DNA of 64,000 nt, taken from positions 6,358,001 to 6,422,000 of the forward strand of contig NZ_CP022203.1 in the NCBI RefSeq assembly GCF_002305895.1. Direction: 5' to 3'. Shown piece after piece: positions 21,773-37,674 of this stretch; the stretch's first letter is position 1; the number at the start of each line of letters is the position of its first letter. The position numbers and the translations under genes were made by a program. Source of the DNA: Corallococcus macrosporus DSM 14697. GTDB lineage: Bacteria; Myxococcota; Myxococcia; Myxococcales; Myxococcaceae. The notes beneath the pieces were generated by a model that did not search any database, was not told the origin of the DNA, and worked only from the letters and a program-made list of their open reading frames with translations.

Positions 21773-23530
21773 ATGGGCTCGAATCAGACGCCGCCTCCTC
21801 GTCACGCATCCCTTCGTCGAGTCCTCGCCCTCGCGCGTCCGGAGTGGAGACTGCTCCTGCTCGGGACGGTCTTCCTCTTCATCGGGAGCGCGGGAGGCCT
21901 GCTCTTTCCCCAGGCCATCCGCGTCATCCTCGACGAGGCCTTGAGCACCGCCACGCTCAGCAAGGTGAACGACACCACCCTGTGGATGCTGGGCGTGTGT
22001 TTCATCCAGTCGGTGGCCATCGGGCTGCGCTTCTCCTTCTACAACCTCGCGGGTGAGCGCATCGTCAGCAACCTGCGGGAGCGCCTGTACCGCAGCTTGC
22101 TGGAGCAGGAGATTGCCTTCTTCGACCAGCACCGCACGGGCGGCCTCACCAGCCGGCTGTCCACGGACACCGCGCTCATCCAGGGCGCCGTCAGCACGCA
22201 CATCGCCATCATGCTCCGCAACGCGACCACGCTGATTGGCGGGCTGGCGTTGCTGCTCTACACCTCGCCCAAGCTGACGCTCGTCATGCTGGCGGTCGTC
22301 CCCCCCGTGACGCTGGGGGCGCTGTTCTACGGCCGGCAGGCGCGCCAGCTCGCGCGAGACGCCCAGGCCGCGGTGGCCGAGGCCAACGAGGTCGCCGCCG
22401 AGTCGCTCTATGGCATCCACACCGTCCAGGCCTTCGTGGCCGAGGGCGCGGAGCGCCAGAGCTACGGGCGCGCCATCGGCAAGGCCCTGGCCCTGGCGCG
22501 CACGAGAATCGTCTCCTCGGGCGTCTTCATGGGCGGCACGGGCTTCACCGGCCTGGCGTCGTCCCTGCTCGTCTTCTGGTATGGCGCGCACATGGTCGTG
22601 AAGGGCGACATCACGGTGGGAGGGCTCACCTCCTTCCTGATGTACACGCTGATGGTCGTCATGGCCGTCAGCGCGCTGAGCGAGCTGTGGGCCGAGTTCA
22701 TGAAGGCGGGAGGCGCCACCGAGCGCGTCTTCGAGCTCATCGACCGCGCGCCCGCCATCCCCGTCAGCGGAGGCGAGCAGCCCGCGCACCTGGAGGGCCG
22801 CCTGCGCTTCCGCGACGTCCGGTTCAGCTACCCCTCGCGCCGGGACGTGCCCGTCCTCCAGGGCCTGGACCTGGACGTCGCGCCTGGGTCCGTCGTGGCG
22901 CTGGTGGGGCACTCGGGCGCGGGCAAGTCCACGGTCGCTTCGCTGTTGATGCGCTTCTACGACCCGGAGCAAGGCGCCATCCTCCTGGATGGGATGGACC
23001 TGCGCACGCTCGACGTCCGCTGGCTCCGGCAGCACATCGGCATCGTGTCGCAGGAGCCCACGCTCTTCTCGGGGAGCATCGCCGACAACATCCGCTACGG
23101 GCGCACCAGCGCCACCGACGCGGAGGTGGAGGCCGCGGCGCGCATCGCCAATGCCCATGACTTCGTGAGCGAGTTTCCAGAAGGCTACCGCACGCGCGTG
23201 GGCGAGCGGGGCATCCAGCTCTCAGGCGGCCAGAAGCAGCGCGTCGCCATCGCCCGCGCGGTCCTCAAGGACCCGCGGCTGCTCATCCTGGACGAGGCCA
23301 CCAGCGCGCTGGACTCGGAGAGCGAGCACCTGGTCAAGGAGGCCCTGGACCGGCTCATGGTGGGGCGCACCACCCTCATCATCGCCCACCGGCTCTCCAC
23401 CGTGGCGGGCGTCGACCGCATCTTCGTGCTGGACCACGGCCGCGTCGTCCAGCACGGAAACCACGAGGCGCTCATCACCCAGGATGGCCTCTACAAGCGC
23501 CTCGTGGAGCGGCAGTTCATCGCCGCCTGA
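21773..23530 (+). CDS. ABC exporter half-transporter (MsbA/BmrA type)
   Basis: 585 residues. A six-helix exporter membrane domain spans ~1-320, followed by a nucleotide-binding domain with Walker A GHSGAGKST, Q-loop VSQEPTLFSGSIADNIRYG, signature LSGGQKQR, Walker B LLILDEATSALDSES and switch IIAHRLST. The subunits dimerise to export lipids, drugs or peptides. There is no C39 peptidase domain at the N-terminus, so it would not itself cleave a leader. It is convergent with the permease gene 4 bases away and 2.7 kb from the candidate RiPP precursor; a role in exporting that peptide is possible but unsupported. Confidence 0.93.
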   Translation: MGSNQTPPPRHASLRRVLALARPEWRLLLLGTVFLFIGSAGGLLFPQAIRVILDEALSTATLSKVNDTTLWMLGVCFIQSVAIGLRFSFYNLAGERIVSNLRERLYRSLLEQEIAFFDQHRTGGLTSRLSTDTALIQGAVSTHIAIMLRNATTLIGGLALLLYTSPKLTLVMLAVVPPVTLGALFYGRQARQLARDAQAAVAEANEVAAESLYGIHTVQAFVAEGAERQSYGRAIGKALALARTRIVSSGVFMGGTGFTGLASSLLVFWYGAHMVVKGDITVGGLTSFLMYTLMVVMAVSALSELWAEFMKAGGATERVFELIDRAPAIPVSGGEQPAHLEGRLRFRDVRFSYPSRRDVPVLQGLDLDVAPGSVVALVGHSGAGKSTVASLLMRFYDPEQGAILLDGMDLRTLDVRWLRQHIGIVSQEPTLFSGSIADNIRYGRTSATDAEVEAAARIANAHDFVSEFPEGYRTRVGERGIQLSGGQKQRVAIARAVLKDPRLLILDEATSALDSESEHLVKEALDRLMVGRTTLIIAHRLSTVAGVDRIFVLDHGRVVQHGNHEALITQDGLYKRLVERQFIAA

Positions 23531-23534
23531 GCCC

Positions 23535-25958
23535 TCACTCCTCGCGCATGGCCATGCTGGGCGGCACGCGCGCGGCGCGCCAGGCGGGCACGTAGCCCGC
23601 CACCAACGCCACGAGCAGCAGCACGGCCGCCGTCCCGAGGAAGACGAGCGGGTCCGCGGGGCTGACCTCGAAGAGCAGCTTCGACAGGCCACGCGCCAGG
23701 ACCAGCGCCAGCACGGAGCCGATGACGACCCCCAGCCCGGCGAGCCGCAGCGCCTGCTTCAGGATCAGCCAGAAGATGCTCGCCTCGCGCGCGCCCAGCG
23801 CCATGCGCACGCCAATCTCCGTCCGCCGCTGGGTGACGGAGTAGGCCATGATGCCGTAGACGCCTCCGGCCGCCAGCAGCAGCGCCACGCACGCGAAGAA
23901 CCCCAGCAGCGCGGCCAGCAGGTGCCGCGAGCCGAACGACTCCGCGATGAGCGCCTCCAGGGGCCGCGGCGCGGGCGGGGGCTGCTCGGGGTCCAACGAG
24001 GCCATGGCCTCACGCAGGCCCGGCACCAGCGACGACGCCGTGGTCCCCACCCCGCCCACCGCCACCATCATCACCATCGCGTCACGCGGGGCCTGGGACA
24101 GCGGCAGGTAGAACTCCGGCACGGATGAGCGCACCTGCCCGCGCCACAGCGTCCGGACGTCCCCCACCACGCCAATGACCTCCCACGGCTCCGCGCCGCC
24201 CGCGAAGAAGCGCTTGCCCAGCGGCGACTCCCCGGGCCAGAAGCGCCGCGCCAGCGCGGAGTTGATCAACGCGACCCGGGGTGCCTCCTCCGCGTCCAAC
24301 GCGTTGAAGTCGCGCCCCTCGTGCAACGGGATGCCCATGGTCCGGAAATAGCCAGGGGAGATGACGCGCTGGCTGGCCTCGGGCAACTGCCCGGGCAGCG
24401 GCTTGGGCTGACCGTCCGGGTAGATGTTCGAGCTCTGGCTGCGGCGGCTGATGGGGGGCAGGCTGGCGGCGGAGACGGCCTGCGCGCCCGGCATGGAGGA
24501 CAGCCGCTCCTGCAGCGCATGGAAGAAGCGGGCGCGCTCGGCGTCCGTCGGATACCGGGTCTCCGGCAGCGTCACGTCGAAGTAGAACACGCGCTCGGCG
24601 GCGAAGCCGGGGGAGGTCCCCTGAAGCCGGTACAGGCTTCGAAGCATCAGGCTCGCGCCCACCACCAGCATCAGGGCCAGGGCCACCTCCGCCGTCACCA
24701 GGGCCGAGCGGATGCTCTTGCGGCCCACCGTGGCGCCCGCCCCCTCTCGCATCGCCTCCAGCGGGTTCTGCCGCGACATCTGGAACGCGGGCGCCAGGCC
24801 GAACACCACGCCGGTGATGGCCGACAGCGCGACGCAGAACAGCAGCGCCCCGCCATCCACCTGGATGGACTGCCACCCGGGCAGGCGCTCCGCCAGGCCG
24901 GGCGGCAGCATGGTGGCAATCATGTGCGTGCCCCACAGCGCGCCCAGGACACCCAGGCCCCCGCCCAGGAGCGACAGCAGGACGCTCTCCGTCAGCGCCT
25001 GGACCATCAGGCGTGTCGGGCTCGCCCCCAGCGCCCCGCGGATGGCCAGCTCCTTCCGCCGGGCCGCCGCGCGCGCCAGGAGCAGGCTGGCGACGTTCGC
25101 GCAGCCGATGAGCAGCACGAAGCCCACCGCGCCTCCCAGCGTGATGAGCAGCGGCCTCAAGGGCCCCAGGTAGGCCTCGCGCACGGACGTGAGCTGCACG
25201 GTGCGCTCCGAGTCCGTGTCGGGATACCGCTCGGCGAGCCGCCCCGCGAGGACCCGCAGCGCGTCCTCCGCCGTGGCCATGGTGAAGCCGGGCTTGAGGC
25301 GGCCCACCACCCGCACCTTCCGGTCCCCGCGGGCGTCCAGCTCCGCCTGCGTCGGCGCGAGCGGCACCCAGGCTTCTGCGCCTGGCGGGAAGTCGAAGCC
25401 CTTCGGCATCACGCCCACGACCGTGTAGGGCTCGCCGTCCAGCGTCACGGACTCACCCAGCACGGAGGGCGCGCCGCCGAACCGGCGCCGCCACAGCCCG
25501 TCCGAGAGCACCACCACCGCCTCACCCCCCACGCGGTCCTCTTCCTCGGAGAAGGCCCTGCCCAACGTGGGCCTCGCCTCCAGCGCGGGGAACAACGCGG
25601 CGCCAACCCGGTACGCCTGGAGCCGCTCCGGCTGCAGCGCGCCCCCCAGGTTCAAGCTCCGCGGGACAATCCCCGCCACGTGCTCGAAGACGCCCGCCTG
25701 CGCCGTCCAGTCCGCCAGCGTCGCCAGCGAGGTCTCGCTCCGCTCGACCCCCGCCTTGGGCAGCGAATCCCACACCATCACCAGACGGTCCTCATGCGGG
25801 AAACGCATGGGCTGCAGCCAGATGGAGTTGACGACACTGAAAATCGTCGTGCTCGCCCCAATCCCCAGCGCCAGCGTCAACATCGCGACCAGGGTGAACG
25901 TGGGGCTCTTGCTCAACAACCTGGCGCCAAACCGGATGTCCTGACGAATCGTATCCAT
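23535..25958 (-). CDS. MacB/FtsX-type ABC permease (ADOP-like, duplicated)
   Basis: 807 residues. It opens with the ADOP-type MDTIRQDIRFGARLLSKSPTFTLVAMLTLALGIGASTTIF, then a MacB periplasmic core domain (~50-250), an FtsX-like three-helix unit (VLLIGCANVASLLLARAAARRKELAIRGALGA), a second periplasmic region and a second FtsX unit (YGIMAYSVTQRRTEIGVRMALGA). Such orphan permeases, first noted in acidobacteria, carry no ATPase in the same operon and probably work mechanically on substrates in the periplasm. The start ATG has GAGAGGG upstream, inside a palindrome. Divergent from the RiPP precursor gene. Confidence 0.9.
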   Translation of the reverse strand: MDTIRQDIRFGARLLSKSPTFTLVAMLTLALGIGASTTIFSVVNSIWLQPMRFPHEDRLVMVWDSLPKAGVERSETSLATLADWTAQAGVFEHVAGIVPRSLNLGGALQPERLQAYRVGAALFPALEARPTLGRAFSEEEDRVGGEAVVVLSDGLWRRRFGGAPSVLGESVTLDGEPYTVVGVMPKGFDFPPGAEAWVPLAPTQAELDARGDRKVRVVGRLKPGFTMATAEDALRVLAGRLAERYPDTDSERTVQLTSVREAYLGPLRPLLITLGGAVGFVLLIGCANVASLLLARAAARRKELAIRGALGASPTRLMVQALTESVLLSLLGGGLGVLGALWGTHMIATMLPPGLAERLPGWQSIQVDGGALLFCVALSAITGVVFGLAPAFQMSRQNPLEAMREGAGATVGRKSIRSALVTAEVALALMLVVGASLMLRSLYRLQGTSPGFAAERVFYFDVTLPETRYPTDAERARFFHALQERLSSMPGAQAVSAASLPPISRRSQSSNIYPDGQPKPLPGQLPEASQRVISPGYFRTMGIPLHEGRDFNALDAEEAPRVALINSALARRFWPGESPLGKRFFAGGAEPWEVIGVVGDVRTLWRGQVRSSVPEFYLPLSQAPRDAMVMMVAVGGVGTTASSLVPGLREAMASLDPEQPPPAPRPLEALIAESFGSRHLLAALLGFFACVALLLAAGGVYGIMAYSVTQRRTEIGVRMALGAREASIFWLILKQALRLAGLGVVIGSVLALVLARGLSKLLFEVSPADPLVFLGTAAVLLLVALVAGYVPAWRAARVPPSMAMREE

Positions 25959-26231: not shown

Positions 26232-26432
26232 ATGGTCGAGAGCAACATCGTTCTGAAGCCCGAGGTGGTGACGTTCAAGCAACTGGATCCCGCGAAGGTG
26301 GACGCGCTCCGCGGCCAGCTGAGCATGATCCTGGGCCGTGGCGACTTCGCCACGCTCTCCGCTCGCGCGGGCGCGGTCGTCGTCAAGGAGCCGCAGGATC
26401 ACACCAGCCACACGTCTGACGGCTGGTTCTAG
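26232..26432 (+). CDS. candidate RiPP precursor with His-Xaa-Ser tail
   Basis: 66 residues, ATG with GGAG seven bases upstream. The N-terminal ~50 residues look like a leader (helical, with FKQLDPAKVDALRGQLSMIL), and the C-terminus is DHTSHTSDGWF, containing two tandem His-Thr-Ser units. Tandem His-Xaa-Ser is the hallmark of substrates of the Hxs radical SAM system, and an HxsB-like enzyme is encoded 1.3 kb away. There is no Gly-Gly or Cys pattern of classical bacteriocins. A strong hairpin follows the stop, as often seen when precursor mRNA must exceed that of downstream genes. The assignment is inference from tail plus context; known HxsA proteins carry more repeats. Confidence 0.7.
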   Translation: MVESNIVLKPEVVTFKQLDPAKVDALRGQLSMILGRGDFATLSARAGAVVVKEPQDHTSHTSDGWF

Positions 26433-26439
26433 CAGGTCT

Positions 26440-26477
26440 CTGCTCCCCGGTTCCCATCCCAGGGCACCGGGGAGCAG
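26440..26477 (+). terminator. hairpin (attenuator) between precursor and glycosyltransferase
   Basis: A perfect 12-base stem, CTGCTCCCCGGT (26440-26451) pairing with ACCGGGGAGCAG (26466-26477), with a 14-base loop and GTTGTCTTG after it. It starts seven bases after the precursor stop and 29 bases before the next start. It probably terminates most transcripts after the precursor, or protects its mRNA. Confidence 0.7.
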
Positions 26478-26505
26478 GTTGTCTTGACGCAAGGACGTCC
26501 CCTCC

Positions 26506-27483
26506 ATGCACCAGGAACTCCGCTCGGTCCAAGCCCCTGTCGTGTTTCTCCTGAATGGGATTGGAGACCGGCTCCTCGCCCTTCCCGCCCTGCGAGCCCT
26601 GAGTCAGATGTACCCGGGTCAAATCAGACTGGTGGGCGCACCAGGTGATTCAAGCCTGTTCTTCTATCAAGAACTCGGGCTCATGAAGGTTCACGAGGTG
26701 CGGGCGACGACGCAGGGCACGGAGCGAAGCATCGACGCGGAGACGCTCCAGCAGGCGGTCGGCACCTGCGACCTGTTCATCTGTTTCAATACCTGGCATG
26801 CGACGGGTGTCTCGGCGCTGCTCGAGGGGTTTCCGCCGACCACCGAAACGGTGGGCCTGTATCGCCGTTACAAGCAGTGGGTCCGGGGTGAGGAGACCCA
26901 GCACATGTTGGACCGGCTCTTCGCGCTGGCGCAGCGGCTGGTCCCCACCCTGCGGCTGGAGGACTTCGCCCAGGCCCCCGTGCTGACGGCCGAGACCACC
27001 GCGGCGGCCAGGAGCTTTCGCGACAGCGTCCCCAAGGGGGCCCGGGTGCTCGCGCTCCACACAGAGACGGGCTCCCGGAAGCAGTGGCCCGTCGCCCGCT
27101 ACCGCGCCGTGCTGGATGCCTTCCTCGAACGTCATCCCGAATGGCTGGTGCTCAACGTGGACTACGGCGCCACGGAGCTGGAGCCCATGGTCCACGGGAA
27201 CCGCGTGCTCGCCGCGCAAGGCGCGCCGCTCGAGGCCGCCATGGCGCTGCTGGGCGCATGCGACGGCTTCCTCGGTATCGACTCGTGCATGCTGCACGCG
27301 GCGGACTTCTTCCGGCTCCCGTCCGTGGGCCTGTTCGGACCGACGTCCCCCTCGCAGTGGGGCTTCCGGCTCACCCCGGCCTTCCGCGAGCTCACCGGGA
27401 ACGGGAGCATGGACGACCTCACCGAGGACGCGGTCCTCGGTGCGCTCACGGACCTGGCCGCCGGCCGGCTGCGCCCCGCCTGA
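26506..27483 (+). CDS. glycosyltransferase family 9-like protein
   Basis: 325 residues, with AAGGAC nine bases before the ATG. The N-terminal half has the GT9 pattern LNGIGDRLLALPALRALSQMYPG, and the C-terminal half has LALHTETGSRKQWPVARY and CDGFLGIDSCMLHAADFFRLPSVGLFGPTSPSQWG, matching the nucleotide-sugar end of ADP-heptose/heptosyltransferases. GT9 enzymes usually transfer heptose to LPS core, but no other LPS gene is nearby. Placed directly behind the peptide gene and facing the modification operon, it may instead glycosylate the peptide. That role is inference. It is 30 bases from the convergent radical SAM gene. Confidence 0.82.
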   Translation: MHQELRSVQAPVVFLLNGIGDRLLALPALRALSQMYPGQIRLVGAPGDSSLFFYQELGLMKVHEVRATTQGTERSIDAETLQQAVGTCDLFICFNTWHATGVSALLEGFPPTTETVGLYRRYKQWVRGEETQHMLDRLFALAQRLVPTLRLEDFAQAPVLTAETTAAARSFRDSVPKGARVLALHTETGSRKQWPVARYRAVLDAFLERHPEWLVLNVDYGATELEPMVHGNRVLAAQGAPLEAAMALLGACDGFLGIDSCMLHAADFFRLPSVGLFGPTSPSQWGFRLTPAFRELTGNGSMDDLTEDAVLGALTDLAAGRLRPA

Positions 27484-27513
27484 GCGGCGGCGAGGGCGCA
27501 GGCCCCGGCGCAA

Positions 27514-29019
27514 TCACCCGCTCTGCACGCTCAGCAGCGGCGGCGGGGCCTCCAGCGCGTCCCCCTCCGACAGGCCATTGGCCATCTTCACCAGCGCGGC
27601 GTCCATGCCCGGCATCATCCGCAGCAGGGGGATGGGGTCCTCCACGAGCTTGCGCAGGACCCACTCCACGACCGCCAAGGTCTGCAGGCACTCCTCGGAG
27701 GCATGCGGGCGCGGCGTCGCGTCTCCGGTCCGGGCGTAGTCCAGCACGGGCAGCACGCCGCAGTAGGGATTGAAGGCGCACTCGCGGCACTCCGGGTCGC
27801 GATCCCTCAACGACAGGTTCATGGAGCGGAACGTGGCCTTGTTCCGGATGAGCGCGTCATAGGTCGTGTCCTTCACATTGCCCAGCCCGAACTCCGAGCG
27901 CATCGAGCGGGCTTCGTCCGACGGCAGGATTTCGCCATCGTGGTCATAGGTGATGGCCGAGCCGAAGTCTCCGACGGGGTTGCGCCAGTCCACGAAGCCC
28001 GTGTCCGTGTTTTGGAGAATCTTGGCCAGCACGACGCGGACCACCCGCTCGGAGTAGTTCTCGTTCTCCCGGCGGTTCTTCTCGTAGATGTAGTCGAGCG
28101 CGTCCAGGTAGTAGCGGAGGAAGTCCTGGATGTCGAAGGGCAGCTTCTCCTTGCGCGCGTTGCCCAGGGCCTTGAGCTTCAGGATGGCGAGGTCCTTGAA
28201 ACCCTCCCCATGGTAGAAGTCGATGGTGCGCCGCAGCTCCTTCGCGTTGGACGCACCCACCACGCACAGGGGCGACGCGCTGAGCACCCCGGGGTAGCGG
28301 TCACGGAAGTGCGCCAGCCGCTCCATGACCTTGCGATAGCTGCCCGCCCCGCTCCGCGTGACGCGGAAGGAGTCGTGGATGTCCTCGGGGCCGTTCAACG
28401 AATACGACACGTTGATGCGGTTCTCCTTGCAGTACGCGATGTGCTCGTCGGTGGCGACCATGAGGTTGCTCACCACGGAGAAGCGCAGCCGCTTGCCCAC
28501 GGCCTCGTTCTGCCTGCGGGCCTCGGCGACGAAGTACTTCATGCCCTCGAAGTTCAGGAAGGGCTCACCGCCCTGGAACTCGAAGCCGAGGAAAGGGGCC
28601 GGAGAGCCGAGCGCGAAGCGGATGATGGCGTCCGCGACGTCGGGCTGCATGTCGAAGCGCTTGGACTCCGCGGAGATGCTCTCCGGGTTCATGTGGCAGT
28701 AGGTGCAGTTGAGGTTGCACCGCTTCGACAGCACGATGATGTGGAGCCCCGGCCCCGCGTAGGTCCGGTCATGCCAGAGCTTGAGGTCCTCCATCACCCG
28801 CGAGGAGTTCCGCGCGGTGATGACGTGGCTGGTGTGCTCGAGCCGCTCGAACAGGGCCTCGTCCATGGAGATTTCGTCGAGCTGGGCATTCTCCGCCGCG
28901 GACAGGAGCTGCATGGCGCCCGTCCGGGACAGCCGCACGAAGTGGTCGGGGCCCACCTGCTTCGCGGGGAAGAAGTTGGGCAGCCACTCGTCGCGATAAC
29001 GCAACCCAGGGACTCTCAT
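27514..29019 (-). CDS. radical SAM/SPASM peptide maturase, HxsB-like
   Basis: 501 residues. An N-terminal ~85-residue region (FVRLSRTGAMQLLSAAENAQL) resembles the substrate-binding lead of HxsB. The radical SAM cluster is CNLNCTYC (Cys101, 105, 108), followed by FEFQGGEPFLNFE. TGFVDWRNPVGDFGSAITYDHDG and the C-terminal SPASM cysteines (411, 414, 420, 444, in CRECAFNPYCG and later) follow the HxsB order as I recall it. The enzyme would bind [4Fe-4S] clusters and modify a peptide by radical chemistry. The ATG overlaps the HExxH gene's stop (ATGA). The usual second radical SAM partner HxsC is not found. Confidence 0.85.
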   Translation of the reverse strand: MRVPGLRYRDEWLPNFFPAKQVGPDHFVRLSRTGAMQLLSAAENAQLDEISMDEALFERLEHTSHVITARNSSRVMEDLKLWHDRTYAGPGLHIIVLSKRCNLNCTYCHMNPESISAESKRFDMQPDVADAIIRFALGSPAPFLGFEFQGGEPFLNFEGMKYFVAEARRQNEAVGKRLRFSVVSNLMVATDEHIAYCKENRINVSYSLNGPEDIHDSFRVTRSGAGSYRKVMERLAHFRDRYPGVLSASPLCVVGASNAKELRRTIDFYHGEGFKDLAILKLKALGNARKEKLPFDIQDFLRYYLDALDYIYEKNRRENENYSERVVRVVLAKILQNTDTGFVDWRNPVGDFGSAITYDHDGEILPSDEARSMRSEFGLGNVKDTTYDALIRNKATFRSMNLSLRDRDPECRECAFNPYCGVLPVLDYARTGDATPRPHASEECLQTLAVVEWVLRKLVEDPIPLLRMMPGMDAALVKMANGLSEGDALEAPPPLLSVQSG

Positions 29020-30437
29020 GAGGCAGCTCCGACGTGCTGGGGGTAGCCGGCCGCGAGCACAGCCGCCTCGCGCCAGTCCATGTAGATCTCCGCGTGGTTC
29101 ACCACAGGGCCGCTGGCGGCCACGCGCGAGAAGTGGTTCTTCATCCAGGCCTCGAAGGCCTGGTCCATGTCCGCGTCCGCGACCCGCTCGATGAGCGGGT
29201 GCTGCTCGCTCAGGGCCACGGCCATCTGCGCCAGGAGCGCGCGCCCCTCGGGCGTGGGGCGCTCGAAGTCCAGGAGGGTGCGGAAGGACAGCAGGTTGCA
29301 GCGGTGCGACTTGAGCAACTGGAAGCGCCACTCCCGCTGCTGGAACTCGGGCCTGTCCAGCGCCAGCAGGCGGAGCCGGTTCACCGCCAGGAAGGAGTGC
29401 AGCCCCAGGTGCAGGCCCCGGAGGGGGCGCGGGTCGGTCCGGTAGGCGGAGACGAACTCGGGACGCGAGTCATCCCACCGCCCGAAGACGCGGGGGTCGA
29501 GCAGCAGGTACATGCGCTCGTGCTGCAGTTCGTGGACCAGGTCCTCCGCGTGCTCCAGGCCGTTCGCCACCCGCGTCAGGAAGACGGGCGTGCCGGCCCC
29601 ATACGAGGACGAGCAGCGCACGCTGCGGTTCTCCGGCCCCCCCATGTCGACGAGCGCGGGGAGCAGCACGCGGGCCCAGTCCAGCACCTCCGGCCACAGC
29701 TCCCCGAGGATGTGGAACGCCTCCTCCGCGCTGCGCAGCAGGGGCATGGGCCGCCAGGTGCCGCTGCTCCCGTCATCCGGGATGCCCGCGCGCTCTCTCC
29801 GGCCGGTGATGCCGAGCAGCTCGCTGTCTTCCAGCACCGGCACCTTCCAGGACTCCGACCAGGGGAGCGGCTGGAGGCGCACGGGCGCATCCACCGTCAA
29901 CGGCAGCGGGATGCGGAGCCCGGGGCCCGCCTCCCCCTCGGCGGTGACCAGGCACTGGGCGCCCGAGAAGTGCCACGTGATGCGCCCCTCGCCGGGGACG
30001 CGCACGTCGAGCTGCTCACCCCGGGGCAGGCAGTAGAGCGCCCGCGGCGTCACGAAGAAGGCCTCGCCGTGGCTGACCTCTCCCCGCAGCCGCTGGACGA
30101 TGAGCAGGGACGCCAGGTTGCCCAGCAGGTGCTGCAACGCGCTGGGGCTGATGGCGGCGGGCCCCAGCAGACGTCCGAGCAGCACCGGCGTACTCCAGTG
30201 CTCCAGGAACTCCCGCGCCAGCGCCGGCGCGCGCTCGACCAGCTCAAAGGCCTCGGAGAGCAGCGACTGGAGCTCCGTGGCACATCCCCCCAGCTTCCCG
30301 AGCCGCTCCGGCTGCTGGACCCAACCGATGAGCAGGTCGAGCTGCCCCATCTGCTGCGTCCGCAGCAGCTCGCGCGCCGAGGCCTCTGTCTCGGGAGACA
30401 ACGGCGTCGGGAACGTGAAGGCCTCTTGGAATTGCAT
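29016..30437 (-). CDS. HExxH-motif putative peptide-modification protein
   Basis: 473 residues. The metal-binding motif is HELQH at 302-306, in GLEHAEDLVHELQHERMYLLLD, followed ~40 residues on by DPRPLRGLHLGLHSFLAV, whose His may be the third ligand. This matches the family first described as 'HEXXH motif putative peptide modification protein', which occurs beside radical SAM genes and whose members are now annotated, as I recall, as 2-oxoglutarate-dependent peptide beta-hydroxylases. The N-terminal ~280 residues are mostly helical and unassigned. Translation is coupled on both sides (TGATG with the MBL gene, ATGA with the radical SAM gene), tying it to the same pathway. Confidence 0.8.
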   Translation of the reverse strand: MQFQEAFTFPTPLSPETEASARELLRTQQMGQLDLLIGWVQQPERLGKLGGCATELQSLLSEAFELVERAPALAREFLEHWSTPVLLGRLLGPAAISPSALQHLLGNLASLLIVQRLRGEVSHGEAFFVTPRALYCLPRGEQLDVRVPGEGRITWHFSGAQCLVTAEGEAGPGLRIPLPLTVDAPVRLQPLPWSESWKVPVLEDSELLGITGRRERAGIPDDGSSGTWRPMPLLRSAEEAFHILGELWPEVLDWARVLLPALVDMGGPENRSVRCSSSYGAGTPVFLTRVANGLEHAEDLVHELQHERMYLLLDPRVFGRWDDSRPEFVSAYRTDPRPLRGLHLGLHSFLAVNRLRLLALDRPEFQQREWRFQLLKSHRCNLLSFRTLLDFERPTPEGRALLAQMAVALSEQHPLIERVADADMDQAFEAWMKNHFSRVAASGPVVNHAEIYMDWREAAVLAAGYPQHVGAAS

Positions 30438-32170
30438 CAGTGACTCCAGTCGAGCACCAACGGAGACTCGTGCGTCAGGTGGGACAGGAACGTGAAGATG
30501 GCGGACTGGACGTCGTCGGGAGGCAGGGAGAGGGCCTCGCTCACGTCGCCCACCATCTCGGAGACCGTGCGGCCGTCGCATTGGTCCAGCAGGAGCGCCT
30601 CGAGCGTGGACAGCGGCTGATAGCGGATGCCCGCCGCGCTCGCGTAACAGAGCACCTCGGCGGTCTCCGGTGACGGCTCGCGCGCGTCGAGCAGCCGCGC
30701 CAGGTCTCGCGTGACACGCAGGTGGTAGGGGCCCAACACCGGGCGGCGCTGGGTGAGGCTGTCGCGCAGCACCGACAGGTGGCTCGCGCGGAGCGCCTCG
30801 GTGCGCTCGTCGCGGCGGGCCAGCTCCTTCAGCCGGCGTGACATGCATTGCAGGTGGAACAGCCCCCGGTCCAGCCAATGGCAGGCGGCCAGGTCCTCCC
30901 GCTGCGCGTCGGTGAGCGCCGGCTCGCCCTGGAGCAGCGCCTCCACCGCGGCGAAGTAGCCAGCGTCCAGGTCGGCGGGCTCGGCGACCTTCGACGGGAG
31001 GAGCGCCACGAGCCGCGCCGCGAGCGCGAAGGCCTTTCCCTCCACGAGGTAGCGGAGCGTCCGGGGCGCCAGGACCGCCGCCGGGGTCTTGTTGACGGAC
31101 GCCTGGCACCGCTCCAGCAGGTAGCTCAGGTCGCGCGTGGAGGCGCGCAGCACCTCCCGGATGGCCTCGAAGGGCTCCAGCCACCGCGCGAGGTCATTGT
31201 CTCCCCATCCCCAGCGCTGATTGGGTTTGCTGGGGTGATAGCCCGTGAAGAAGGTCGTCAACAGCGCCTGGGGACGCCGCTGCCCCCGCGCCGGCTCGAA
31301 CCGGCGGCCGGGCTGGAACAGCGCGCAGCGCTCCAGGTCGTGCTGCGCGTAGACGAGCCGATACGGGGGCTTCCAGGGCAGGAGCGCCGCGCCCTGCGCG
31401 CGCGTCACCGCGGCGGCCATCCAATGCGCCCGGTCCACGGGATAGCGCTCCAGGCGGTCCTCCCGCGGCCGCCCCGCCATGGACAGCGTCCCACCGCAGG
31501 TGGCGATGCGCGCGGGCTTCAACCACTCACACAGCGCGAGCGCGCCCACCGGGTCCAGTTGATTCCAGAACCCCTGCCACTGGACCGAGGCCCCCGTGGG
31601 GACGAAGGCCACGTCCACCCGGCCCCGGAAGGGCTCCAGCGCCTCGCGGGTCCGGGGTGAATCCGTCACATCCACCGCGTCCAACGCCAGCACGTCCGGC
31701 GTCTCCAGCAGCAAGGCGCATTGCTCTTCGCCCTCCCCCGAGCATTGCGCGGGCAGGGCGTGGATGCGCACGTCCTCGCCCAACTCGATGACGTCCCCCT
31801 CCAGGTACGGGTGGAGGTTGCGGAAGCCCAGCGCGGTGAGAATCTCTCGCGCGCTGGAGCCGGGCGCACCGCCTGGCTTCGGCCTGTCGAGGAAATACAG
31901 GGCGACATCCTCGCGCAGGCCCAACAGGCTGGGCGGATGGAGATGGTCGTCGTGCGCGTGGGAGAAGAAGACCGCGTTGACCGACGCCAGGTCATCGAAG
32001 AACCACGCGGGGCACGCGGGCTGCCGGAAATCCAGCTCCCGTGAGACGAGCACCGGGTCGATGAGAATCCTCAGGGGACCGCGGTGAATGGCAAAGGACG
32101 TGTGCCCCAGATGCTCGATGAAAGTCCGCACAGCCCGCCCATTCCGAATATCGAGAACTGAACGTATCAA
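30437..32170 (-). CDS. metallo-beta-lactamase-fold protein with PqqD-like C-terminus
   Basis: 577 residues. An N-terminal MBL fold of the UlaG-like type has GHTSFAIHRGPLRILIDP and the metal motif SHAHDDH at 70-76, with later His/Asp ligands (LALDAVDVTDS). The last ~60 residues (LSTLEALLLDQCDGRTVSEMVGDVS to FLSHLTHES) read like a PqqD-type winged helix, the recognition element that binds RiPP leaders. The middle is helical and unassigned. The start is TTG at 32170 with GAGGG seven bases upstream; GTG at 32131 would also keep the whole MBL domain. It overlaps the HExxH gene by one base. Hydrolysis or bond formation on the peptide are possible roles. Confidence 0.72.
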   Translation of the reverse strand: MIRSVLDIRNGRAVRTFIEHLGHTSFAIHRGPLRILIDPVLVSRELDFRQPACPAWFFDDLASVNAVFFSHAHDDHLHPPSLLGLREDVALYFLDRPKPGGAPGSSAREILTALGFRNLHPYLEGDVIELGEDVRIHALPAQCSGEGEEQCALLLETPDVLALDAVDVTDSPRTREALEPFRGRVDVAFVPTGASVQWQGFWNQLDPVGALALCEWLKPARIATCGGTLSMAGRPREDRLERYPVDRAHWMAAAVTRAQGAALLPWKPPYRLVYAQHDLERCALFQPGRRFEPARGQRRPQALLTTFFTGYHPSKPNQRWGWGDNDLARWLEPFEAIREVLRASTRDLSYLLERCQASVNKTPAAVLAPRTLRYLVEGKAFALAARLVALLPSKVAEPADLDAGYFAAVEALLQGEPALTDAQREDLAACHWLDRGLFHLQCMSRRLKELARRDERTEALRASHLSVLRDSLTQRRPVLGPYHLRVTRDLARLLDAREPSPETAEVLCYASAAGIRYQPLSTLEALLLDQCDGRTVSEMVGDVSEALSLPPDDVQSAIFTFLSHLTHESPLVLDWSH

Positions 32171-32212
32171 TCCGTGTCCCTCAGCGTCAATTCCAGGCCA
32201 CGGGAGGGAGGC

Positions 32213-34246
32213 TCAGCGCGCGCGGAGGGTTTCGGACGTGCGATGGGTGGCCAGATAGGCCTTGGCTTCAATCAGCGGCGCCCCCGTCAACCCCAGCTTG
32301 ACGTGCGCGAGCCGCTTGTCGAAGACACTCTCACGCACGGCCGAGCCAGCCGGGAGCTGGATTTGGGTGCGCCCCGGCCAGGCGAGCAGCGCGTCACGGC
32401 GCGCGGGTGCGCAGAGTCCCCGCGTCACGAGCGCGTCGAGCAGGAGCTGCCACCGGGGCTCCTCGGAGGGCTGCGCGCGCCCCTGGAACGAGCACTCGAG
32501 CCCCAGCGTCGGCAGCAACCGCGGCGACAGGTCCAGGTTGAGCATGAAGCGGTTGACGCCGAGCGGAAGCACCCACGCGAGGGTGTCTCGAAGCTGCTGA
32601 AAGTCACCTGGCCACGCCACGGCTTCCAGGTAGGACACGATGCGCTCTGGCGGCACGTTCTTCAGCGTGAAACGCAGGTTCTTGCTCCGGCGAGACATCA
32701 TCACGCAGGCCGCGTAGAGGTGCGCGCCGGGAGGCAGCGCGTTGATACAGACATCCATCTCCCGCTGAAGCTCGGGTGTGAGCGGCGCGTCATCGCCTCG
32801 CAGGAGCGGGAGCCCCGCGTGGAGCGTCGCACGGTAGGTCTCCGACTTCTGCCTGTGCAGGGCCTCGCTGACGGCGACAGGCTGGTCCCGGGTGCAGAGG
32901 AAGACGATGGGCAGCGGCGGCGAGGCGACGGGCGCGTCCAGGTCGAACTCCAGCCAGAACGCGTCGACCTCCCTGTCGAGCAGCCCGTCCGGCTCGGACC
33001 ACCCGCGCGCGAAGTCACGAATGCGCCGCCACTCGGGCGCGTCGAACAAGGGCGCTGGCAGCGAAGCGTGGGGATGCTCGCCAGCGAGCAGCGCCTGGCC
33101 GTCGTGCTTGATGCCCAGGATGAAGTCCACGCGCGGCGTGCCCTCCAGCAGCCGGACCTCGAACCCGCCATCGCCCTCCAGCGCCGCGGGCAGCCATTCG
33201 CCCAGCGCGAGCAGGCGCTCCCGAGCCTCGGGCGCGAACAACGCGGGCGGATAATCCTTGTCGAAGGCCGCCAGCGTCTCCTTCCAGGTGCCCGACCGGG
33301 CCGGCAGCGCCCCCGGGAGGAAGTTGTCGGTCCGGTCCGCCGCGATGCGCGCGATTCGGGCGTAACGCGCCAGCGCTTCGACACACAGCGCCGCGGACGC
33401 CTCGAGCGAGCCGTAGACGACCTCTCCGGACTCGTACAGCGGGGCCACCGGCCAGAGCCCCTCCTCGCTCTGCACGCCCAGCAGCACGGACGCCATGGCA
33501 TCCAGCGTCCGCTCGAAGAGGTTGACGTCCGTGGGGCGCCCCAGGTTCATCAGCGCGCTCATCGCCAGGGCGATGTTCACCGCGCCGAGCACCTCGCCCT
33601 TCTCCCAGAGCGTGATGAGCTCGTTCCGGAGCGGGACTGCGAGCTGCCAGTGGTCCCCCGCGCTGCGCACCCAACGCGTCAGCAGGTAGCCCAGCAGGAA
33701 GGGCGAAGCAGCGGGCTGACCGCCCGTGCAGCCCAGCAGCCCCCGGGCGCGAAGCTGCTCGGAGACCCACGCGGCGCGCTCCGGCAGCGCCCGCCCTTCG
33801 TGCGCCGCCAGGAGCAGGAGGTCCGCGTTCGTGGCGACGTCCTCGCCAGCCGCGACGCCGTCGCTGGACAGGAGCGCCTCCAGCGAGGAAGGCGCGTCCA
33901 GCGTGACGTTCCATTGGCGGAGCGCCACCAGCGCACGCGCCGACTCTCCCGTCGCAGGCGCGACCGCATCCGGTGAGAAGCGCCAGAGGCCCGTCGAGGC
34001 GCGGCTGGCGCGCAACCGCTCCACACAGGAAAACACCAGCTCGTGCCAGAGCCCCTTGGACTCACCCAGCGAGAGGAGGACCAGCGTGGCCGCCGCCGGA
34101 GAGTCCACCACGCCCACGCCCGCCCCCGTGGAGGCCAACAACTCCGCCGCGGGAAGCTGTTCCAGGGCGGCGTTCGCCGCGGCAATGGCCTCGTCCAGCA
34201 GCGCTTGCGTGGGCCGGATGGGCGTTCCTGGAATCTGGACAGACAC
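32213..34246 (-). CDS. alpha-toroid (prenyltransferase/cyclase-like) protein with unassigned C-terminal domain
   Basis: 677 residues from a GTG with CGGAGGA six bases upstream. The first ~330 residues are Leu/Ala-rich helical hairpins with GLWRFSPD, GYLLTRWV and SEEGLWPVAPLYESG motifs, like the alpha/alpha-toroid of squalene-cyclase/prenyltransferase repeats, but without a DXDD-type acid motif that I can see. The second half (from VDAFWLEFDLDAP) is a different alpha/beta domain with LGLECSFQG, WQLLLDALVTRGLC, ALLAWPG and HVKLGL...AKAYL. I do not recognise it and no function is claimed. It is the first gene of the leftward operon, 42 bases before the MBL gene, so it is probably part of the same pathway. 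Confidence 0.68.
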   Translation of the reverse strand: MSVQIPGTPIRPTQALLDEAIAAANAALEQLPAAELLASTGAGVGVVDSPAAATLVLLSLGESKGLWHELVFSCVERLRASRASTGLWRFSPDAVAPATGESARALVALRQWNVTLDAPSSLEALLSSDGVAAGEDVATNADLLLLAAHEGRALPERAAWVSEQLRARGLLGCTGGQPAASPFLLGYLLTRWVRSAGDHWQLAVPLRNELITLWEKGEVLGAVNIALAMSALMNLGRPTDVNLFERTLDAMASVLLGVQSEEGLWPVAPLYESGEVVYGSLEASAALCVEALARYARIARIAADRTDNFLPGALPARSGTWKETLAAFDKDYPPALFAPEARERLLALGEWLPAALEGDGGFEVRLLEGTPRVDFILGIKHDGQALLAGEHPHASLPAPLFDAPEWRRIRDFARGWSEPDGLLDREVDAFWLEFDLDAPVASPPLPIVFLCTRDQPVAVSEALHRQKSETYRATLHAGLPLLRGDDAPLTPELQREMDVCINALPPGAHLYAACVMMSRRSKNLRFTLKNVPPERIVSYLEAVAWPGDFQQLRDTLAWVLPLGVNRFMLNLDLSPRLLPTLGLECSFQGRAQPSEEPRWQLLLDALVTRGLCAPARRDALLAWPGRTQIQLPAGSAVRESVFDKRLAHVKLGLTGAPLIEAKAYLATHRTSETLRAR

Positions 34247-34452: not shown

Positions 34453-35997
34453 CTACGTCGCGCCCAGCAGCGAGGGGATGCGGTATCTGCGCGCGGCGGC
34501 GGGGAAGCCACCCGCTGTCGCCGCGGCGACGTAGGTCGCGAGGTTCGGACACACGTAGTCGCGCTCGGTGGCCGCCGTCGCGCCCAGCCAATACGCCAGG
34601 GAATAGGCGTACTGGTCCACCGACAGCGTGGGAATCCAGCGCCCGCGCGAGTCCGTGGTATCGGGGTTGTTCGCGCCGTTGGCGGCCAGGTCCAGGCTGG
34701 GGTACGTGCCGTACAGTCGGCCGCCCTGGACCTGCTCGCCAATGACGATGGCGTGGCCACCCCAGGCGTGGTCCGTGCCCCGGTCGGAGTTCTCCACCAT
34801 CGTGCGGCTGAAGTCGCTCATGGTGAAGAGCGTGGCCTGCGGAGGCGTGGCGCCGAAGACGCCGGACTCGCGCAGGAGCGCCACCGCCCGGTGGAAGGCA
34901 TCCAGCGAGGAGTCGAGCTGGGCAAGCAGGGCTTCGTGCGTGGTGAGCTGCCCCACGTGGGTGTCGAAGCCGCCCAGCCCCACGGAGAACGCCTGACGCC
35001 GCAGCCCCAGGCCTCCGCCCGCCGCGGACGTCGCGCCCGCGACGAGGTCCCGCAGCACGTTCTGGAGCTGCGGGAGCAGCGACCAGCCCGTCACGCCGGA
35101 GGGGGGAATGAACAACGCGTCAATGGCATTGCGCGTCTGGAGCGGGAGCGCGTTCCACGCCGCATCACGGGCCTCGGCCCGAGCCAGGGCGAACGTCTTG
35201 GCCTGCGTGAAGATGCCCGCGTAGGACGCCTCCAGCGTGACGCCGTTCGAGATGCCCAGCACCTCCGCGAGCGCCTCGGTCTGGAGCGCGTTGAAGCTCG
35301 CGGAGCCGTTCTCCCGGAAGGCGAGCGTGCCGTTGGCGGGGACCATCATCGGCTGCCGCGAGGCCCCCGCCGCGAAGAGGGGCTTGCCCCCGAACGACAC
35401 GACCTCGGGATACTCCCCGGCGTTGAGGCCATGAATCATGTCCGCCATGCGGCCGCCCCACCCCGTGGCCTTGCCCACGAGCGCCAGGGGCAGCCCCGCG
35501 GTGGACGGGTTCGCGATGGCGCTCGCCCAGGCGTCCTGCTGGTCGCTGTGGGAGTACAGGTTGTCCGGGCGGGCGGTGGCGCCCGACGTGTACTCCGCCT
35601 TCTTCATGGGGAGGACCAGCGGCCCCACGTTGCAGACGAGCGCGGCGCGCCCCTGGTCGAAGAGGGCCCGCACCTTCTGCAGCGAGGGGTGGAGCCCATA
35701 GGCGTTCGCGGCCAGCCCTTCCGGGCTGATGGGCAGCAGGTCCCCCTGGGGGATGCCGATGTTCGGCCGCGCGGCGCGGTAGTGCGAGTAGGGCGTGGAC
35801 CCGAGCGGGACCAGGACGTTGTTGGCGTCATTGCCGCCCAGCAGGAACACGCAGACCGCCGCGCGATAGCCCGCGTAACCGCCGAGGGAGGCCGCCTGCG
35901 CCTCGCCCACCAGCCAGCGCGGCAGCGCGGACGACGCGGCGAGGAGCCCCAGACCGCTGGACGTACCACGAAGGAACTGTCGTCTCGAGAAGGACAT
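34453..35997 (-). CDS. DUF1501 protein, Tat-exported
   Basis: 514 residues. The N-terminus SRRQFLRGTSSGLGLLAASSALP is a twin-arginine signal. The body has the DUF1501 features VCVFLLGGNDANNVLVPLG near the start, GLGGFDTH, TMSDFSRTMVENSDRGTDHAWGGHAIVIG and GRWIPTLSVDQYAYSLAYWLG near the end, resembling the alkaline phosphatase/sulfatase superfamily. The biochemical role is unknown. It starts three bases after the DUF1800 stop; the two families are regularly adjacent and probably act together in the envelope or outside the cell. Confidence 0.9.
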   Translation of the reverse strand: MSFSRRQFLRGTSSGLGLLAASSALPRWLVGEAQAASLGGYAGYRAAVCVFLLGGNDANNVLVPLGSTPYSHYRAARPNIGIPQGDLLPISPEGLAANAYGLHPSLQKVRALFDQGRAALVCNVGPLVLPMKKAEYTSGATARPDNLYSHSDQQDAWASAIANPSTAGLPLALVGKATGWGGRMADMIHGLNAGEYPEVVSFGGKPLFAAGASRQPMMVPANGTLAFRENGSASFNALQTEALAEVLGISNGVTLEASYAGIFTQAKTFALARAEARDAAWNALPLQTRNAIDALFIPPSGVTGWSLLPQLQNVLRDLVAGATSAAGGGLGLRRQAFSVGLGGFDTHVGQLTTHEALLAQLDSSLDAFHRAVALLRESGVFGATPPQATLFTMSDFSRTMVENSDRGTDHAWGGHAIVIGEQVQGGRLYGTYPSLDLAANGANNPDTTDSRGRWIPTLSVDQYAYSLAYWLGATAATERDYVCPNLATYVAAATAGGFPAAARRYRIPSLLGAT

Positions 35998-36000
35998 GGG

Positions 36001-37674
36001 CTACCTCTGAATCTGGAACTCGGGTGAGAGCGACGTGAGATAGACGGCCAGCTTGCGCTGGCGCGTCGAGTCCCCCGCGCGAGCATCGGTGATGGCCCCG
36101 TGGACGAGCGTCTGCAGGCTCGACGACATCGAGGCGTGGAGCCAGTAGCGGCCCAGCCAGACCACCAGCGCGCTGGCGTCGGCCGGGAGCACGCTCACGT
36201 CCACCATGACGCCCGCGTTGGCCGGCGTGTTCGCGTAGAGGAGCTCATGCACGAAGTTGGCGCGGGCCGTCACCGTGGCCGTGTCGAGGATGGCGAACTC
36301 GGGGCCCAGCAGCCCGTTGCCCCCCGGCGCGGGGGCGTTCGGCGGGTAGTAGCTGAAGACGGAGGGAGGCCGGGGCACCGACTGGCCCATGGCGCTGCTC
36401 CAACTGTTCAGCTTCGCGCCGGGGTCCTTGGTTCCGCCCGCCGTGTCCAGCGTGCCGTTGAGCCAGCGGACGAGCGTGGTGACGAACAACGCGGGCGAGC
36501 GCAGGTGTCCGTAGTTGGCGCGCTGTCCCGGGAGAACGGACGGCCCGCGCGCGTCGTCATCCTCCAGAATCGCGCGGACCACCGCGCCCAGGTCGCCGCG
36601 CACGCCGCTGCCGTTGTCCTTGAAGACGTTGACCACGCGCCGGACGTACCCAGGGCGCGGGTTGCTGGTGACCAGGTGCTGGATGAGCTGCTTGCAGATG
36701 AAGGGCGGGAGGTTCGGGTCGGCGAAGACGTTGTCCAAGGCCTCGTTCAGGTGCGCCTTGACGCCGCCCCCCGCCGTCGTGCGCTGGCCCCGCAGCAGGA
36801 GCTGCGAGCTCGAGTCATGGTTCACGTTGCAGCCAATCATCCGCTGCCCGTAGCTGGCCGGGTTCGAGCGGCCCCGGTCGGGGCAGCCGTTCTCGTTGGC
36901 ATAGGTCCACCCGGAGAGCGCATGGGCGAAGGCCTGGACGTGGGCCTCCGTGTACGCCGGAATCGGCGCGCCCTCGGCGTCCGTCCGCTCCGTGCCGTCC
37001 TCGTTGAGCTTGTGGAGCCCCAGCGTGAAGAGCTGGAGCATCTCCCGCGCGTAGTTCTCGTTGGGCGCCACGGCCGTGCCATTCGCCAGGTAGGCCTTGT
37101 TGTTCGCCATGTCCAGGTACGTGCCCATGGCGGGGTTCAGCGTGATGGCCTCCAGCAGGTCGCGGAAGTTGCCAAAGGCATTGGCGGAGAGCGTGTTGAG
37201 GTAGCCCGCCATCGCCAGCCTCGGCTCCGACTCCGGCGTGGACGCGAGGTTGGGGATGCCGTTCTGGGAGACGACGAAGAGCTGGCTCAGCGCGAACGAC
37301 ACCCGCTGCCGCAACTGGTCCCTCCCCTCAATGGCATGGGTGAAGAACTGGGAGCCGAGGTCCGGCGCCCCCAGCTCACCGGTATAGGTGGAGCGGGCGG
37401 CGTTGAGCTGCGCGGTGATGGAGGCGGAGATGCCGCGCGCCATCACCGACTCCACCGTGTCGATGGGCAGCGGGCTCGCGCCCCACGCGAGCTTCGGCCC
37501 GAAGGTCGACTGCTCGAGGAAGCGGATGGCGTTGGCCTCCGAGGGCGTCTCCAGCGGCTCGGCGGCCTGCTCCCGCTGACCGAGGACCTCGCTCTCCACC
37601 GCCTCCGGGGGACTGTCTTCCGGTGCGCACGCGGTCACGCACACGGCCATCGCTAGGGTGAGACGTCGAAGCAT
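36001..37674 (-). CDS. DUF1800 lipoprotein
   Basis: 557 residues with GGAGG nine bases before the ATG. A short signal peptide ends in VTAC (Cys16), so it is probably a lipoprotein. Family features are AIRFLEQSTFGP near the N-terminus, QLRQRVSFALSQLFVVS, NENYAREMLQLFTLGLHKLNEDG, AFAHALSGWTY and PNLPPFICKQLIQHLVTSNPRPGYVRRV. Function is unknown; it always seems to travel with DUF1501, as here. The segment REMLQLFTLG is the most conserved part of the family as I recall it. Confidence 0.9.
   Translation of the reverse strand: MLRRLTLAMAVCVTACAPEDSPPEAVESEVLGQREQAAEPLETPSEANAIRFLEQSTFGPKLAWGASPLPIDTVESVMARGISASITAQLNAARSTYTGELGAPDLGSQFFTHAIEGRDQLRQRVSFALSQLFVVSQNGIPNLASTPESEPRLAMAGYLNTLSANAFGNFRDLLEAITLNPAMGTYLDMANNKAYLANGTAVAPNENYAREMLQLFTLGLHKLNEDGTERTDAEGAPIPAYTEAHVQAFAHALSGWTYANENGCPDRGRSNPASYGQRMIGCNVNHDSSSQLLLRGQRTTAGGGVKAHLNEALDNVFADPNLPPFICKQLIQHLVTSNPRPGYVRRVVNVFKDNGSGVRGDLGAVVRAILEDDDARGPSVLPGQRANYGHLRSPALFVTTLVRWLNGTLDTAGGTKDPGAKLNSWSSAMGQSVPRPPSVFSYYPPNAPAPGGNGLLGPEFAILDTATVTARANFVHELLYANTPANAGVMVDVSVLPADASALVVWLGRYWLHASMSSSLQTLVHGAITDARAGDSTRQRKLAVYLTSLSPEFQIQR

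Follow-up and report, generated by a model that had tools for sequence, protein, structure and literature searches.

Related systems and organization of the locus

The closest described counterparts of the locus analyzed here share only part of its gene set. In the Hxs system (HxsA/HxsB/HxsC/HxsD), a radical SAM enzyme of the HxsB superfamily adjoins an H-x-S peptide, and the true HxsA precursors are of the signal type and contain multiple HxS repeats (HRSHSSHRSHYS-like). In the open full texts, the relevant papers on HxsB or His-Xaa-Ser only mention the prediction by Haft and Basu, and no description was found of what HxsB-type radical SAM enzymes produce. The second counterpart is ChlB/ChlH, a fused radical SAM-aKG-HExxH protein (TIGR04267), in which ChlH hydroxylates His and Asp once the cyclophane has formed (PMC12636437); aKG-HExxH enzymes can also hydroxylate other residues or, in the case of PflC/PosC, cleave the peptide backbone (PMC12636437). 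Finally, NctPC, a fusion of an ABBA-PT with an MstE-like cyclase, geranylgeranylates Trp in a RiPP (PMC13290415).

The window, that is, the entire 64,000-nucleotide stretch of DNA that was analyzed, belongs to an 8.97-Mb Myxococcus-type genome with 71% GC. At positions 26232-34246, two plus-strand genes, encoding a precursor peptide and a GT9-family glycosyltransferase, converge with four minus-strand genes that encode the toroid, MBL, HExxH and radical SAM proteins, and all six genes are confirmed as present and conserved (Table 1). The radical SAM, HExxH and MBL genes share a few bases at their junctions (ATGA-type overlaps) and are translationally coupled, and the toroid gene, the first of the minus-strand run, starts with GTG behind the RBS GGAGGA. 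With a probability of about 0.55, we interpret this locus as representing an apparently undescribed RiPP family in which radical SAM chemistry at His-Xaa-Ser is combined with a beta-hydroxylation, an MBL step resembling that of CmlA or PqqB, probable prenylation of Trp, and the transfer of a sugar. The RiPP family itself is real and conserved and, as far as open full texts show, apparently unreported: no paper was found there that unites five or more of the six terms RiPP, prenyl, radical SAM, PqqD, MBL and Myxococc.

Table 1. Genes and domains of the cluster and its conserved neighbors (window positions)
Feature	Position	Strand	Evidence
MsbA/peptide-exporter-type ABC transporter, conserved neighbor	21773..23530	+	ABC_membrane and ABC_tran
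ADOP-family (MacB/FtsX-like) permease, conserved neighbor	23535..25958	-	TIGR03434, 936 bits
Precursor peptide, 66 aa	26232..26432	+	ORF with RBS GGAG; paralogs; homologs; pN/pS
GT9-family glycosyltransferase	26506..27483	+	Pfam PF01075, 55 bits, E=8e-15; linkage in 6/6 genomes
HxsB-like radical SAM/SPASM enzyme	27514..29019	-	TIGR03978, 313 bits; alignment; tree
aKG-HExxH-type peptide beta-hydroxylase	29016..30437	-	TIGR04267, 96 bits; alignment; weak ChlH 8s5f match
MBL-fold protein with helical middle region and PqqD-like C-terminal domain	30437..32131	-	PF12706/PF13483 above cut-off; folds CmlA/FrsH
PqqD-like domain at the C-terminus of the MBL protein (RiPP recognition element-type)	30440..30661	-	PF05402 sub-threshold; modeled topology
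Toroid protein: N-terminal terpene-cyclase-like alpha-toroid and C-terminal ABBA-prenyltransferase-like domain	32213..34246	-	AlphaFold, Foldseek, QW motif

Conservation of the gene set

The same set of genes is found in Myxococcus, Pyxidicoccus, the genome G014 (without the toroid gene) and a Thermoanaerobaculia MAG. The HExxH, MBL and precursor genes are present in every well-covered locus, and the toroid gene in all such loci except G014. A search of 195 Myxococcota genomes yielded 10 radical SAM orthologs with scores of at least 946 bits, followed by a gap down to 279 bits, and the MBL-PqqD protein is found in exactly the same 10 genomes. Because the genomes are related, these counts overstate the number of independent events; despite this kinship, Acidobacteriota and two myxobacterial lineages agree on the gene set. 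In the neighborhood survey, homologs of the enzymes were found beside a small H-x-S peptide, an association whose absence an earlier note on this DNA had named as evidence against its proposal.

Each of the six genomes examined encodes only 2-3 GT9 proteins and, in every one, at least one of the respective genes belongs to this cluster, which makes the GT9 protein a cluster member. The ADOP permease and the ABC exporter lie beside the cluster in the orthologous loci in which the flank is covered, and are part of the conserved block; the MsbA-type ABC transporter lacks a C39 peptidase domain. Genes for a Tat-signal protein and a putative lipoprotein adjoin the cluster in the window (34453-37674), and their place varies in the orthologous loci. 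GT9 fragments located between tandem precursor copies (L035:2779-3024, L048:13211-13456 and L106:5276-5521) are relics of duplication of the precursor-GT9 unit.

Precursor peptide

The 66-aa ORF contains the sequence PQDHTSHTSDGWF and consists, from the N- to the C-terminus, of a leader motif (LDPAKVDALRGQLSMILGRG), a variable spacer and a core that ends in DHTSHTSDGWF-COOH. Ten aligned copies have in common the leader motif L(D/S)xxKVxxLRxQLxxxLGxG (helical, with the consensus L-D-x-x-K-V-x-A-L-R-x-Q-L-x-x-x-L-G-x-G), an indel-containing spacer and, at the C-terminus, a core with the consensus P-x-x-H-[ST]-[SN]-[HY]-x-(D)-x-D-G-[WF]-[FIV]. The core HTSHTSDGWF is accompanied in the family by HSNHTSDGWF (a paralog), HSSYGDGDGWI, HSSHGDSDGWI, HSSHSDGDGFI and HTSHSDNDGWV. 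The first His, the Asp-Gly pair and an aromatic residue are conserved among these cores; the paired HTS units seen in the window do not form a conserved repeat. The peptide had previously been described as ending in two His-Thr-Ser units; its small size is borne out, but the end is DGWF and a single H-x-S is conserved. A two-HTS repeat was also considered as the recognition unit and rejected, given that the second HTS is not conserved across the family.

Most sister species carry 2-3 precursor paralogs, and Pyxidicoccus, M. dinghuensis, G014 and Thermoanaerobaculia encode homologs as well. Per site, there are more synonymous than nonsynonymous changes in every copy compared, by a clear margin in the majority, and pN/pS is about 0-0.4 in most copies. 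The paralogs, the pN/pS values and the variable spacer between a conserved leader motif and a conserved core all indicate that the precursor is a real gene. The locus thus has the hallmark of a RiPP cluster, namely a small ribosomal precursor with a conserved leader and core next to modifying enzymes.

The radical SAM enzyme and its relationship to the Hxs system

The radical SAM/SPASM enzyme contains the motifs CNLNCTYC and C411xxC414..C420..C444. In the HMM search, HxsB (TIGR03978) is its best family by a wide margin (313 bits, compared to 109 bits for the next family), in agreement with its initial description as HxsB-like, yet the score is below the curated cut-off of 370 bits of this equivalog model. 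Sequence identity is 93-94% with the orthologs from Myxococcus spp., 62-67% with those from Pyxidicoccus fallax, M. dinghuensis, G014 and the Thermoanaerobaculia MAG, and 56% with one from a cyanobacterial MAG. In a tree of 38 rows, these proteins form a monophyletic clade (support 100/100) with a stem of 1.08 changes per column, which lies outside a 99/99 group that consists of HxsB+HxsC and the HGS-repeat clade.

The previously noted absence of HxsC and HxsD was corroborated: the best match to the HxsC model (TIGR03977) in the window genome scores 26 bits against a cut-off of 268 bits, and HxsD (TIGR03976) was detected neither in the window genome nor in the orthologous genomes. At true HxsB loci, the adjoining HxsC scores 391-413 bits; in the family survey, HxsB is found beside an over-cut-off HxsC in seven genomes, with HxsD at the four loci tested.

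The locus had been proposed to be a new architecture of the Hxs system, in which HxsB chemistry acts on the HTS units and the HExxH protein, perhaps with a sugar, replaces HxsC and HxsD. The HxsB model being by far the best match, the adjoining H-x-S peptide and the lack of HxsC and HxsD are all compatible with such a variant. Nevertheless, the sub-threshold score, the separate clade on a long branch, the leader-core precursor with one conserved H-x-S in place of a signal-type protein with tandem HxS repeats, and a second, non-HxsC radical SAM enzyme that relatives hold besides the HExxH protein make it quite improbable. The cluster further differs from Hxs in the addition of the HExxH, MBL-PqqD, toroid-ABBA and GT9 proteins. 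Membership of the radical SAM enzyme in the Hxs system is therefore not supported, and we prefer the interpretation as a distinct RiPP family.

In each of the three main subclades in the tree, HxsB-like radical SAM enzymes are accompanied by H-x-S peptides, and upstream of the cyanobacterial ortholog there is a 78-aa ORF that ends in GHWSISW; the partner genes were not found on the 8.5-kb contig of this ortholog. The identification of H-x-S as the target of the radical SAM enzyme is therefore well supported by association.

The HExxH protein and the second radical SAM enzyme

The assignment of the HExxH protein is confirmed by the HMM search, with 95.9 bits against TIGR04267 (cut-off 40). The HELQH motif is invariant in the alignment of 7 orthologs, as befits an aKG-HExxH peptide beta-hydroxylase, and a profile search retrieved ChlH weakly (8s5f, E=0.05). 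His and Asp, the residues targeted by ChlH, are both conserved in the core, and the protein may catalyze either hydroxylation or backbone cleavage.

These similarities raise the alternative of a cyclophane pathway of the ChlBH/FxsB type, with small cyclophanes formed at His/Trp by the radical SAM enzyme, hydroxylation of ring residues by the HExxH enzyme and the toroid-ABBA protein as a non-catalytic peptide carrier. The core contains the His, Asp and Trp that such a pathway would use, the action of ChlH on His/Asp follows cyclophane formation, and FxsB models do match the radical SAM enzyme, albeit weakly (55 bits). However, the HxsB match is 258 bits better, the radical SAM and HExxH enzymes are not fused, and retention of the toroid-ABBA protein in clusters with Trp-containing cores is left unexplained. 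On balance, we regard a cyclophane pathway as unlikely and retain the interpretation in which the radical SAM enzyme acts at H-x-S. The cluster differs from ChlB/ChlH in encoding the two enzymes in separate genes, in the family of its radical SAM enzyme and in its further tailoring enzymes.

The clusters of Pyxidicoccus, M. dinghuensis, G014 and Thermoanaerobaculia encode, in addition to the HExxH protein, a second SPASM enzyme that is not HxsC; in the deeper lineages, this enzyme and a Cys-rich 305-aa protein are encoded between the radical SAM and toroid genes. The possibility that the second enzyme is HxsC was rejected (24 bits with the HxsC model vs. the 268-bit cut-off), and no such enzyme is encoded elsewhere in the window genome. 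Because the deeper relatives carry both proteins, HExxH coexists with the second radical SAM enzyme and does not replace it, contrary to what the earlier note had suggested; the Myxococcus form of the cluster looks reduced. The Cys-rich family (FGYPxCC..FHFPCSPRC), for which no Pfam or NCBIfam match was found, occurs together with the second SPASM enzyme (L053:12785-13702, L054:12797-13711 and L037:3275-4378).

The MBL-PqqD protein

In the MBL domain, the HxHxDH motif and a downstream Asp (D155) are invariant, the third canonical His has given way to another residue in a Glu-rich loop that is itself invariant (PAxxSxEGEEQC), and the last His is replaced by CGG. Two diiron hydroxylases with an MBL fold, CmlA and FrsH, are among the top fold matches of the model; CmlA likewise has a Glu in place of a His ligand. 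Beyond this similarity to the CmlA/FrsH/PqqB group, the protein differs in the replacement of the last metal-binding His and in the presence of a PqqD-like tail instead of an NRPS-docking domain. The AlphaFold confidence is moderate (69 overall) and low at residues 277-352. The protein had been read as an MBL fold with a PqqD-like tail, of which the MBL part is secured by Pfam; the tail scores 14.6 bits with PF05402, below the cut-off of 23.4, whereas residues 496-559 are modeled (pLDDT about 85) with the b-b-a-a-a order of secondary structure elements of a winged helix. Judging from this modeled secondary structure, the C-terminal domain is PqqD-like.

The PQQ tool set comprises an MBL protein, PqqD and a radical SAM/SPASM enzyme, and the cluster encodes the same three components, so that a redox cofactor similar to PQQ or mycofactocin might be built from the C-terminus of the peptide. 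This alternative appears very improbable in view of the attached ABC exporter and ADOP permease, the 1-3 divergent precursor copies, the patchy distribution (10 of 195 genomes) and the fact that no linked dehydrogenase was noted in the cluster. A secreted RiPP remains the preferred interpretation. The deeper clusters also encode a second MBL protein beside GT9 (L121:5362-6864 and L122:4948-6738), without the PqqD tail and with His at the usual place of the third ligand.

The toroid protein

The N-terminal alpha-toroid, recognized early on, is borne out by the AlphaFold2 model (pLDDT 81), which consists of an alpha-toroid (residues 1-300) and an alpha/beta domain (330-677). The toroid half, with Foldseek matches to drimenol synthase, squalene-hopene cyclase (SHC) and MstE, contains a QW motif (QSEEGLW) and hits SHC weakly in a profile search (E=1e-4); KxY is also present in the protein, which matches no Pfam or NCBIfam family. 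The Foldseek matches of the C-terminal half include the aromatic prenyltransferases AmbP3, FamD1, PriB and DMATS1 (prob 1.00, E about 1e-4 to 1e-3) and, as the weakest, the histidine prenyltransferase FunA. The abba-barrel is indicated at the level of the fold, with TM-scores of about 0.45-0.58 and rmsd near 8 A, and profiles against PDB, Pfam and NCBIfam added no sequence support. The protein, to which no role had been assigned, thus looks, on the basis of the model, like a prenyltransferase fusion.

Comparison with the published description of NctPC reveals both folds in one protein and Trp in the substrate; unlike NctPC, the cyclase-like domain of the window protein lacks the type II terpene cyclase motif DxDD, the C-terminal half has no HMM match, and radical SAM and HExxH enzymes are present. 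DxDD is missing in the Myxococcaceae orthologs as well, which makes type II cyclization by the toroid unlikely; in the toroid protein of locus L051, the single DxDD match falls within a Gly-Asp stretch of low complexity. An isoprenoid synthase was not noticed among the genes of the cluster.

In G014, which has no toroid gene within about 43 kb, the core contains Phe where the other clusters have Trp, a single but suggestive case of paired change. However, terminal Trp after HGS repeats is also found in the sister clade of HGS-repeat radical SAM enzymes, which has no toroid gene nearby, so that Trp conservation may not reflect prenylation. The Thermoanaerobaculia cluster encodes a second, monodomain SHC-like protein with DTDDTA.

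Proposed pathway

Given the gene set, the enzyme families or folds, their conservation and co-occurrence and the precursor family, which are established, a pathway can be outlined in which every reaction, site and order is inferred. The PqqD-like tail of the MBL protein would probably bind the leader and might serve as a shared docking platform. The HxsB-like enzyme would form a bond at the His-Xaa-Ser unit of the core, the aKG/Fe-dependent HExxH enzyme would hydroxylate the beta-carbon of a residue for which His and Asp are the likeliest candidates, and the MBL domain would probably act as a metal-dependent oxidase or hydroxylase of the CmlA or PqqB kind. The ABBA domain could then attach a prenyl group to the penultimate Trp while the toroid holds or cyclizes the isoprenoid, and the GT9 enzyme might add a sugar, perhaps on the new hydroxyl, before export by the ABC exporter and the ADOP permease. 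The order of the steps is a guess. A more far-reaching possibility, a peptide-terpenoid-glycan RiPP class in which crosslinking, beta-hydroxylation, PqqD-guided MBL oxidation, Trp prenylation or terpenoid formation and heptose-type glycosylation all occur on one core, is tentative and rather doubtful.

Compact clusters, cultivable Myxococcus hosts and one or few 66-aa precursors make this a tractable RiPP family, in which several reactions of little-known chemistry would converge on about 10 residues. With its single conserved H-x-S unit, the precursor is a simple substrate for finding the product of an HxsB-type radical SAM enzyme, and the RiPP toolbox would gain two proteins, the MBL-PqqD fusion and the toroid-ABBA protein as a candidate Trp prenyltransferase.

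Other neighborhoods of HxsB-like genes

The genes of the sister HxsB-like clade, which lacks true HxsC, adjoin genes for long (HGS)n repeat proteins that end in HGSW and have twin-arginine-like or helical N-termini (L092:6558-6902, L093:7792-8202 and L096:7793-8173). In one myxobacterial genus, a dozen or more radical SAM genes that match the HxsC model are found within about 30 kb around the HxsB-like gene; such arrays are located at L038 (G055 C58:504-535 kb), L045 (G016 C6:109-134 kb) and L047 (G048). At L099:5499-8634, an HxsB-like gene adjoins the genes for an HDRD/HDRE-repeat protein and for a protein similar to the Cys-rich 305-aa protein found in the deeper clusters.
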